A DNA stretch of 64,000 bases from Propionibacteriaceae bacterium (GTDB lineage Bacteria; Actinomycetota; Actinomycetes; Propionibacteriales; Propionibacteriaceae), in NCBI GenBank assembly GCA_031266665.1, contig JAISAO010000070.1, positions 1-64,000 of the forward strand, in the 5' to 3' direction. The notes beneath the pieces are model-generated. The model was given only the letters and a program-made list of their open reading frames with translations, was not told where the DNA came from and searched no databases. Position numbers and translations under genes: made by a program. Shown here in pieces: positions 36,291-39,897 of the stretch (position 1 is the stretch's first letter; every line of letters starts with the position of its first letter).

Positions 36291-36449
36291 ATGACTGAAC
36301 CGCGGAACGGGGCGACCGCAGACGGATTCGCTCCTCAGCCGTCGTCAAGGCCGGAGTCGGCGTCAGCGACCAATGACACGCAGACCGCCGGACTAACACA
36401 ATCATCATTTATACCCCCCCCCCCCGCTACCTCCACCGCCTCCGTCTGA
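36291..36449 (+). CDS. 5' segment of the TPR protein gene, out of frame with its body
   Basis: It starts MTEPRNGATADGF with a good ribosome-binding site and a plausible promoter. After 41 codons it enters a C12 run and in the given sequence stops at 36449. One C fewer (or two more) would join it in frame through a proline-rich stretch (LPPPPPSDALRQGD onward) to the large protein starting at 36529. The most likely reading is that this is the true N-terminus of that protein: a cytoplasmic Pro-rich segment ahead of its first membrane helix. Confidence 0.7.
   Translation: MTEPRNGATADGFAPQPSSRPESASATNDTQTAGLTQSSFIPPPPATSTASV
36414..36425 (+). repeat. Homopolymeric C12 tract in a coding region
   Basis: Twelve consecutive C lie between the start codon and the body of the large TPR gene. 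Such tracts slip readily in replication and are also prone to sequencing error. The count decides whether the gene is on or off. Confidence 0.95.
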
Positions 36450-36528
36450 TGCTCTAAGACAGGGCGATCCACCGCCTCCAACAACACCCCCAGCGACCCC
36501 ATCGGGCTGGAGCCCGAGACGGACAGTC

Positions 36529-39500
36529 ATGACGGCCGGCGCGGCCCTGCTGGCCGCCGTCACCGTCCTGACACTGGCCTTCCCCCTGTTGGCTCAGGGC
36601 TACGCCGCCAATGTGGTGGACAACGCCGTCCTTCCCACGGGCAGCACGTCCGAATCCGCCCCCAACCCCGAGGCTGAGACCAGCTCCACCTCCCAATTCG
36701 ATAACAACCTGCCGTTGGACATGGGGATCAGGAGTCTGCCCCTGCTGAGCGACTGGGCGGTCCAGCAATGGGAGACCGGCGATTTTGACGCCGCCGTCCA
36801 AACGACCGGCGAGCGCGTCTTCGGCTCGACCTGGATTGACCTGTGGGCAATACCGTCAACAAGTGATTGGTGGGGTGTGCCCGCCCATCCGTCCGAAGCT
36901 ATACCCGGGCTCGCCTCAGCGGTCAAAGCGTTGAACTCCGAGTCCGAACAAGATTTACTCGACCTGGCCGGGCTACTAGTTTTCGAAGCCGCTTTCACCT
37001 CATCCGACTACTCACTGTTTGACGAACATCAACGTGCGTCTGTTTATGCCGTGGCAGTAGCCGAGGAAGCTGCGGCCCGTTTTGACTCTTGCGACTCCCG
37101 TCTCACCGCTGCCTACATTCATGGCCTGGTGCAGCAAGCCAACACCAATCAGGTGATAGAACTCTATGATAACGTGATCAAACGCTGCCCTGACGACCCG
37201 ACCGCAGCCATCGAACAGGCCAGGTCGAAACTTATCCGAGGGGATTCAAATAGGGGACTGCCGGGCGTACAATTATTGACCTGGGTAAGTCTCGCTGATA
37301 ACGGTGACTGGGCCGCAGTAGAACAAACGTTAACCGAATTGATCGCCGCGTGGCCCCGGGTCGCCGCCGCTCACGCCTTAGTCGGCGATGCTTATCTGCT
37401 GTTAGCGAGGCGTGCACCCGTCGGTCAATTCAGCCTAGCGCACTTCCGAGAGCAAGCCGTAGCCGCCTATACAGCAGCGACTGAAATATCTTCGGAGCCA
37501 GCCTTACGGCTGTCCCTAGCCCAAGCCCAGTTTATAGCTGGACGGTTGGACGGAGTTGAGGCCACCTTGGCCGCGCTGCCGTCCACGGCGAATCAGAAAC
37601 AAGCCCAGACCCTGGCAGCGGCACTGACCGCCTCTAGGAAAGATTTCACCCGAGCCCTGGCTCTAACCGATAGTGCCGCCGGAGTCAAAACTCCCTCGGC
37701 ACCGAGCCTTGAACTCAACCCTTCATACATGTATTACGACCCTTTATCGTTTGTCACGGTCGCAACCGGTGGCGCGTTTGGATTCATTTCCAATGCGTAC
37801 CCCGGTGGAGCAAGCTCACAGGTTGACGACCTTGGATTCACCCCAATCACACGGGCCGATCCCAGCTATGAAAATCCCAGACTAGCACCCATCACAGACG
37901 GCGCGACCGACCGCGCCATGCTCGGCTACGCCCTCTTAGCAGAAGACTGGAGCAGCGCCGACCAGATCTGCCAGCTCCACAGCCTCGACTACTACTATCT
38001 TAATATCTGCGGTGTCACCGCCGCCCGCGGGCGAGTAACCGACATGAGCGTGGCGGCGGCCGACACCTTGCAAGATTTAATGCGCCAATGGAATCAACTC
38101 GACCTGGCGACCGCCTGGAATGAGGCTTGGGTTGAAAGCTCGCCCGACGAGCCGGTGGCTTGGGAACGGCTGGGAGAAGTCAAGTTCCTGCAAAGCGATT
38201 GGATCGGAGCAGCCGAAGCCTGCGCCCAGGCAAACAACCTCTACAACACCTACACCAGCGGACCGGCCGAGAGGGATCAGCCAAACAATCGTTTGGAAAA
38301 CTGGTCGAACGGCCGCTTAAGGAATATGTCTGGCCCAGGTTGGGCTTTGCTCAGACAAGCCTCGGCCGAACGTCAACAAGACCACTGGAAATCAGCCACT
38401 GCCTTGCTTGATTTAGTCTCACAGGCCCAAGTGCCGTTCGATTCACAGTGGCCGGCTGGTTTTGAGCACTTTTCCCAGGACGACGCCCAATTGTTGAACA
38501 TGTACGTTGAGATGGAGCGCGGCCAACTGGCCAGCGACCAGGCCGACCACCAAGAGACCATCGCCCGAATGGAGGCCTCCATCGCGTTGCGCGATAGCTT
38601 CTGGCAGCCGGTCGTCACCGGCGCCCAGGAACAAGCCATCAGCCTGGCCTATTTCAAGCTGGGTGATTACCAGGCGGCTCTGGACTGGGCCGAACAGGCC
38701 CTGGCGGCCGATCCCTTCTCCCCCCTCTACCAAGAGGCTGTGGCCGACGCCCGCCGCGCCCTTGGACAAGCCACACCGTCCAGCGCCGACCCGACGGCCG
38801 AGCCCGCCGGCGTGACGACCAACCCTGAGACAACCCCGGACGAGGCTGACCCCGGATCGGACCGGTCCGAGTTGATCGCCGCCTACCGCCAGAGCTTGGA
38901 CCTCGACCCCTCCTTGTTCTCGTCTTGGAACAACCTCGGCGTCCTCTTGGCCCAGGACGGCCAGGCCGCCGCCGCCGCCCAGGCCTTCCAGCAGGCCGTC
39001 CGCCTTCTACCCGACTACGCCATCGCCTGGTTTAACCTCGGCGCCCTGGAGGCCGACCAACCCGGGCTCGGCGCCTTCCTCCTGTCCCAGGGCGCTCTCG
39101 GCCGGGCCGGCGCCCTGGACTCGGGGTGGAAGAACCAAGACCCCGAGTTGAGCTTCGACAATGAGGTTTACGCCTCCGGCCTCGACGTCTCCAAACCGAT
39201 CCCAGCCGACTGGCAGTTGGCCCAAACCGTCCGCGCCAACACCCCCGTCGTGACCGCCGGCCTGGTCTTCGTCCTGTTGCTGCGCGTGGGCAAAGAATTG
39301 TCCCAGAGCCTGTTCACCGAGCGTCTGGCCCAACGCTCCCTCAAACGCGGCGCCCACCCCAGACTGTCCGCCCTCACCCGGTTGCGCCGTCCGGCCGCCA
39401 TCACCAGCCTGGTCAGCGCCGCCGCCCTGCTGTGGGTTGTTGGACCCAACGGCTGGCGCGAGACCGTCCTGGTCGGCCTCGGCGCCGTCGTCCTGCTGGG

Positions 39501-39897
39501 CTGGCACGCCTTCGCCCCACGCCTGTTGGCGGCCGGACGCGATGCCGGCCACCAGGCCTTCCCCCTGGCCTCCCTGCTGACCTTGGGACTGGCCCCCTTC
39601 GGCCTCGGCTTCACCCCGCCCGCACCCCTGGCGGCCGACCACGCCCCGGCCGCCGTCCGCCGCTCCGGCATCGCCGCCCTCACCGTCCTCACCCTCGCGC
39701 TGGCCGCCCTGGCCGCTGTCACCGCCGTCCCCGCCACCCGCGCCACCGCCCTGGCCGGCGTCCTCGTCCTGTCCTCGGCCCTGATCCCCTTCCCGCCCCT
39801 GGACGGCGGCCGTCTCCAAACCAAACGCCGCACCGAGTTGGCCATCAGCCTGCTCCTATTGGTCGCCACCATCGCCGTGGCCCTCAAACTCATCTGA
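36529..39897 (+). CDS. Large membrane-anchored TPR protein with M50-like (HExxH-less) C-terminal domain
   Basis: 1122 residues from the internal ATG. An N-terminal membrane helix (GAALLAAVTVLTLAFPLLAQG) is followed by an outside region of about 850 residues with scattered TPR-type helix pairs, clearest at 690-730 (AISLAYFKLGDYQAALDWAEQALAADPFSP) and 790-850 (WNNLGVLLAQDGQAAAAAQAFQQAVRLLPDYAIAWFNLG). The last 200 residues hold about five or six membrane helices and the phrase PFPPLDGGRL, the second motif of M50 site-2 proteases, but no HExxH is present. The middle third (37000-38450) is visibly AT-richer than its surroundings. ATG 36529 has a poor ribosome-binding site; see the C12 tract for the true start. 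Function is unknown. Confidence 0.75.
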   Translation: MTAGAALLAAVTVLTLAFPLLAQGYAANVVDNAVLPTGSTSESAPNPEAETSSTSQFDNNLPLDMGIRSLPLLSDWAVQQWETGDFDAAVQTTGERVFGSTWIDLWAIPSTSDWWGVPAHPSEAIPGLASAVKALNSESEQDLLDLAGLLVFEAAFTSSDYSLFDEHQRASVYAVAVAEEAAARFDSCDSRLTAAYIHGLVQQANTNQVIELYDNVIKRCPDDPTAAIEQARSKLIRGDSNRGLPGVQLLTWVSLADNGDWAAVEQTLTELIAAWPRVAAAHALVGDAYLLLARRAPVGQFSLAHFREQAVAAYTAATEISSEPALRLSLAQAQFIAGRLDGVEATLAALPSTANQKQAQTLAAALTASRKDFTRALALTDSAAGVKTPSAPSLELNPSYMYYDPLSFVTVATGGAFGFISNAYPGGASSQVDDLGFTPITRADPSYENPRLAPITDGATDRAMLGYALLAEDWSSADQICQLHSLDYYYLNICGVTAARGRVTDMSVAAADTLQDLMRQWNQLDLATAWNEAWVESSPDEPVAWERLGEVKFLQSDWIGAAEACAQANNLYNTYTSGPAERDQPNNRLENWSNGRLRNMSGPGWALLRQASAERQQDHWKSATALLDLVSQAQVPFDSQWPAGFEHFSQDDAQLLNMYVEMERGQLASDQADHQETIARMEASIALRDSFWQPVVTGAQEQAISLAYFKLGDYQAALDWAEQALAADPFSPLYQEAVADARRALGQATPSSADPTAEPAGVTTNPETTPDEADPGSDRSELIAAYRQSLDLDPSLFSSWNNLGVLLAQDGQAAAAAQAFQQAVRLLPDYAIAWFNLGALEADQPGLGAFLLSQGALGRAGALDSGWKNQDPELSFDNEVYASGLDVSKPIPADWQLAQTVRANTPVVTAGLVFVLLLRVGKELSQSLFTERLAQRSLKRGAHPRLSALTRLRRPAAITSLVSAAALLWVVGPNGWRETVLVGLGAVVLLGWHAFAPRLLAAGRDAGHQAFPLASLLTLGLAPFGLGFTPPAPLAADHAPAAVRRSGIAALTVLTLALAALAAVTAVPATRATALAGVLVLSSALIPFPPLDGGRLQTKRRTELAISLLLLVATIAVALKLI

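Follow-up and report, generated by a model that had tools for sequence, protein, structure and literature searches.

A C12 tract between the start and the body of a TPR membrane protein gene is a candidate phase variation switch in a member of the Propionibacteriaceae

The window, which is the whole 64-kb stretch of DNA that was analysed, carries a large ORF on its forward strand whose predicted product of 1122 residues matched TPR_11, TPR_17, TPR_14 and other Pfam families above their curated cut-offs, and the best 60 of its 74 PDB profile matches were by name to TPR proteins or to designed proteins with TPR parts; a comparison with NCBIfam gave only matches far under the cut-offs. The structure model (mean pLDDT 61) placed a first helix at residues 4-30, a helical solenoid from approximately 75 to 863 and further helices from 905 to the end, with values below 50 for the first helix and the C-terminal helices. 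The protein had originally been predicted to be a giant TPR membrane protein, and the TPR repeats, the N-terminal hydrophobic helix and the helical C-terminal part seen in the profiles and the model agree with this, the first helix being likely to span the membrane. Site-2-protease-like (M50) proteins combine an HExxH zinc motif with a PxDG motif. A C-terminal M50 domain was considered for this protein, which has a PLDG-type motif near its C-terminus, but was rejected as HExxH was absent, by eye, from the seven C-terminal alignment rows and there was no Pfam M50 match.

Among the 57 genomes searched, homologues were present in 6 of the 19 of the genus (the host's own genome included); outside the genus, one further genome of the family and one of the order had a homologue. 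In named records they are present in four Propionibacteriaceae MAGs, one MAG labelled Bifidobacteriaceae, two Bifidobacterium species and Tessaracoccus caeni. Occurrence in only 6 of 19 congeneric genomes suggests that this is an accessory gene. The MAG codes Nt197 and Emb289, both of which bear homologues, are given as termite samples in passages of PMC7024585, and it is from congeners that we infer a termite-gut link for the host. The body of the protein aligned along its length with 36-39% identity to four homologues and, in a second alignment, with 30-51% identity to six, and this full-length alignment, along with the integrity of the frame over 1122 codons, argues against an old pseudogene. 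The closest aligned homologue (L031, 51% identity) lies on a 7.9-kb contig of the MAG labelled Bifidobacteriaceae and is nearer than the aligned congeneric copies, which points either to horizontal transfer or to a misbinned contig.

The first ATG of the 1122-residue ORF is an internal one (36529); its frame is open from 36397 and has no ATG, GTG or TTG between that position and 36529. Further upstream, a second ATG (36291-36293) opens a frame of 41 codons which runs into a tract of exactly 12 C, flanked by A and G (Table 1), and, in the sequence as assembled, ends after a total of 52 codons, so that the 5' start segment and the 1122-codon body are out of frame with each other. One of the three phases downstream of the tract is long, with 1156 codons and its stop at 39895, compared to 7 and 9 codons for the other two. 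By frame arithmetic a tract of 11 or 14 C joins the 5' ORF to the body (the C11 product having 1201 residues), and a change of one base in tract length toggles an otherwise intact reading frame. The arrangement described in the original prediction, with an exact C12 tract separating the gene start from the giant TPR body, an ATG reading 41 codons into it and frame restored by 11 or 14 C, therefore holds. Start signals had also been proposed for this ATG; an SD-like AAAGGGA 7 bases 5' of it is a plausible ribosome binding site by eye, but the proposed promoter was not recovered, as a scan gave no sigma-70-like match on the + strand upstream of 36291 and its sole match on that strand (36373-36402) falls within the 5' ORF.

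Table 1. Features of the TPR gene and its cytosine tract, in positions of the window
Feature	Position	Strand	Basis
5' ORF, ATG and 41 codons, putative N-terminal tail of the gene	36291..36413	+	reading frames; SD-like AAAGGGA by eye; codon usage poor
Homopolymeric tract C12, proposed slippage switch	36414..36425	+	sequence; run-length counts
Stop-free stretch in the body frame, proline-rich, with two Arg codons before TM1 and no in-frame start	36426..36528	+	reading frames; codon usage poor
TGA closing the 5' ORF in the C12 state	36447..36449	+	reading frames
Body ORF, 1122 aa, with hydrophobic first helix, TPR solenoid and C-terminal helices that are likely membrane-spanning; internal ATG 36529	36529..39897	+	ORF; Pfam; PDB profiles; structure model

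Comparison of N-termini suggests that the gene probably reads across the tract. All eight homologues with a readable N-terminus (L010, L011, L012, L015, L017, L031, L035 and L036) have at least one basic residue within the 12 residues before the first transmembrane helix (TM1) or in its first three residues, behind an N-terminal tail which varies from 7 to 233 residues. The matching Arg-Arg codons of the TPR gene are encoded between the tract and the internal ATG, where there is no in-frame start, and hence translation would have to begin 5' of the tract to include them. Codon usage, however, is poor on either side of the tract, where the two short segments score -0.87 and -1.32 bits per codon in the relevant frame (compared to +0.05 in the body) and better in other frames, with a GC3 of 0.57 and 0.44 compared to 0.75 in the body, and 75 stop-free codons would be met by chance at this GC in about one case in five, as estimated from base composition. 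We take the conserved basic residues to be stronger evidence than the poor codon usage and the chance of an open frame.

The C12 tract is an outlier, beyond what chance would give. The second-longest G/C run in the window has 7 bases, and the count of runs of at least k bases drops at least four-fold for each extra base from k = 2 to 6. The whole genome (3.28 Mb in 106 contigs) has 40 G/C runs of at least 8 bases, 23 of at least 9, 17 of at least 10, 14 of at least 11 and 11 of at least 12, compared to 0.2-1.3 expected for the last class if the count at exactly 8 bases (17 runs) is extrapolated using decay ratios of 0.30-0.45. Six of these 11 longest runs are internal to their contigs, which are C41 (that of the TPR gene), C51, C76, C84, C88 and C101.

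C or G runs of at least 12 bases were present in 14 of the 19 congeneric genomes, giving 65 runs in total, with 37 lying within approximately 130 bases of a contig end, where such tracts probably break assemblies or are read artefacts, and 28 being internal. Eight of the internal tracts were picked by eye as having a start codon, a 5' ORF, the tract and then a long ORF; these are the TPR gene, an nSTAND-type ATPase (contig C51), an MFS transporter (L047), an ABC ATPase (L068) and four membrane-protein-like ORFs (L050, L060, with a weak start codon, L061 and L082). Seven of the eight are out of frame as assembled, L050 being in frame. Six more tracts (L054, L059, L067, L071, L084 and L087) have a frame open for at least 80 codons on both sides; we judged these mostly to be spurious ORFs or cases where the gene starts 3' of the tract, and counting them as genes would leave 7 of 14 out of frame. 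Neither proportion is a significant excess, because random lengths would put two thirds of tracts out of frame, but both argue against a frame that is maintained in all cells, which predicts mostly in-frame tracts.

Tests of tract position used those 23 of the 28 internal tracts that had 1400 bases of flanking sequence on either side, along with short runs of 5-7 bases from 12 of the sources. Long tracts were rarer inside ORFs than short runs, both when 120 codons were required on each side (2/23 compared to 131/283 short runs, p = 0.0002) and when 80 were (7/23 compared to 197/283, p = 0.0002), although this may only reflect the harm done by frame breaks. Enrichment of long tracts at gene starts was not significant (5/23 compared to 39/283, p = 0.22, with p = 0.16-0.42 in three other settings).

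Individual tracts differ in their placement. The nSTAND-type ATPase locus, in the same genome as the TPR gene, has its C12 tract (L020, 4059-4070) in a P-loop ATPase ORF, the frame of which is broken after the P-loop as assembled and is followed by 529 open codons in another frame. At L047 (1502-1514), L068 (1499-1512), L061 (1501-1512) and L082 (2463-2474), a tract of C12-C14 lies 2 to 10 codons after the start codon and is followed by an out-of-frame ORF, either that of an MFS transporter or ABC ATPase or a membrane-protein-like one. On contig C88 there is a G15 run (L025, 4052-4066), with TTGACA just 5' of it, 11 bases 5' of the ATG of a 434-aa WG-repeat lipoprotein-like protein, homologues of which were found as weak matches in two other genomes of the genus. 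Near the end of contig C56, a protein of more than 1265 aa, with VWA and FctA-type (pilin-like) domains, has a C15 run (L028, 65-79) approximately 125 bases 5' of its first listed start. Near the end of contig C68, a C23/G23 run (L029, 87-109) lies in a type IIG-like restriction-methylation gene; there was no tract at this linker position in 10 of 10 relatives (L092-L101), and the run may be a contig-end artefact. One such homologous restriction-type locus, in a genome (G077) of another genus of the family, has a G24 run inside it at a different place (L094, 2147-2170). On contig C84, C13 (L023, 3946-3958) lies approximately 540 bases 5' of a protein with TIR-like PADLOC matches, in sequence resembling a transposase fragment.

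The repair background of the genus was also surveyed. MutS_V gave no match in the 19 genomes of the genus (some of which are incomplete), compared to matches in 11 of 14 known genomes used as a control, while NucS matched in all 19. In Mycobacterium smegmatis, NucS leaves indels of 1-2 bp unrepaired, which the authors tie to mycobacterial phase variation in passages of PMC11551767.

We consider it more likely than not, reasoning from the sequence, that the C12 tract is an intragenic contingency locus undergoing phase variation by slipped-strand mispairing, caught by the assembly in its OFF state, with changes of tract length presumed to occur in vivo. Cells of a dividing population would gain or lose a C by replication slippage, some having the 41-codon start segment in frame with the TPR protein (ON) and others not (OFF), and the assembled C12 sequence would represent an OFF state. 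OFF cells would make little or no TPR protein, the TPR part of which may face outwards. The original prediction of a poly-C switch is thus supported in part: long tracts in 14 of 19 congeners, some with the same layout, and the lack of a MutS match are consistent with it. A non-repetitive, in-frame sequence at this place in relatives had been named as evidence against a switch, and the homologues compared in other species do have an uninterrupted in-frame gene without a tract. None of six homologous loci has a G/C run of at least 8 bases, suggesting that the tract probably arose in the TPR gene's own lineage; this makes it lineage-specific and does not mean that it has no function.

Those uninterrupted homologues would also suit an assembly or sequencing error, in which case the tract would be in frame in essentially all cells and the gene always on. 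The fragmentation of the genome into 106 contigs and the 37 of 65 genus tracts at contig ends give this some weight, but the tract lies far inside a 115-kb contig, the out-of-frame genes (7 of the 8 picked by eye, or 7 of 14) come from different assemblies and slippage would be expected at a C11 tract too, and we regard such an error as unlikely. It is more doubtful still that the tract is neutral, with translation starting also at the internal ATG and tract length affecting nothing but an expendable proline-rich tail. This ATG immediately precedes the hydrophobic helix, which would be kept intact, and the tail is highly variable in length in relatives; set against this, a start there would lose the basic residues seen near TM1 in all eight homologues, this ATG is preceded by eye by nothing better than a weak GGA, and internal starts of the same layout in Bifidobacterium breve were judged unused in passages of PMC9187656.

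A recent inactivation, in which slippage lengthened the run and left the gene permanently off and in decay, would fit the presence of homologues in a minority of congeneric genomes and a frame that is broken as assembled. We think it improbable, as 1122 codons without a stop or a second frame break would be unexpected in a decaying gene and, without MutS, a 12-base tract would be expected to revert readily. Long homopolymers can support reframing by polymerase or ribosome, and the layout of an upstream ORF followed by a body ORF is one in which RNA polymerase or ribosome slippage at the C run could give a fixed low level of full-length protein from a C12 gene. Nothing in this analysis supports such programmed reframing, which we hold to be very improbable. 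The precedent of the same layout in B. breve was attributed to replication slippage (PMC9187656), and with the same anatomy of upstream ORF, tract and large ORF present here, replication slippage is the most economical explanation.

In B. breve UCC2003 both slippage and pili were measured for the sortase-pilus genes bbr_0113 and bbr_1889; a G11 tract lies between an upstream ORF and the pilin ORF, the culture was a mix of 59% G12 and 37% G11, and strains placed in frame made pili, while populations that are out of frame show a polar loss of RNA-seq coverage 3' of the tract (PMC9187656). These genes resemble the TPR gene in belonging to an actinobacterium and in having a short upstream ORF with start signals, a tract (there of G, 10-11 bases) and a large out-of-frame ORF, which there encodes a surface protein. 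They differ in their body, which in B. breve encodes a secreted LPXTG pilin and stands first in a cluster that includes its sortase. Cutibacterium acnes, of the same family as the TPR gene's host, has 54 variable homopolymeric tracts, 96% of them G/C, which are intergenic or shift reading frames, although no membrane TPR gene is named in passages of PMC4746626. Tract lengths there track clades, suggesting slow accumulation rather than active switching (PMC4746626), and by analogy a slow change of tract length may apply to the TPR gene too.

Gardnerella, also in the Actinobacteria, has many tracts upstream of or within ORFs, some for surface proteins, and tract length changed among colonies for one gene; its tracts are A/T as well as G/C, unlike that of the TPR gene, and colony phenotype is not tied to a single tract (passages of PMC11287997). 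Given the variable tracts described in C. acnes, Gardnerella and B. breve, the original statement that such designs are rarely reported in actinobacteria was too strong. A G/C run also switches the frame of contingency genes in accounts of Neisseria and Campylobacter, but these are of other phyla. Literature searches found no paper on homopolymeric-tract phase variation in metagenome-assembled Actinobacteria and nothing relevant on homopolymer phase variation with termites; for phase variation and homopolymeric tetratricopeptide membrane proteins, no title or beginning of an abstract among the matches listed concerned this family.

The TPR gene is therefore probably a new case of a switch type that related bacteria are known to have, and its interest lies more in the genus-wide set than in the single locus. 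We suggest, tentatively, that uncultured termite-gut-related Propionibacteriaceae of this genus could possess a genus-wide poly-C contingency repertoire, favoured by MutS-free, NucS-only repair, whose targets would include, besides surface proteins, transporters and an nSTAND ATPase of the phage-defence kind, with a pilus protein and a restriction-modification enzyme as possible others. If this is true, the poly-G/C switches of human-associated actinobacteria would gain a further lineage and novel types of target, and archived metagenomic reads could show mixtures of ON and OFF states within single insect guts. Phase variation would then be a genus-wide trait of uncultured insect-gut actinobacteria, and one directly testable on metagenome reads.
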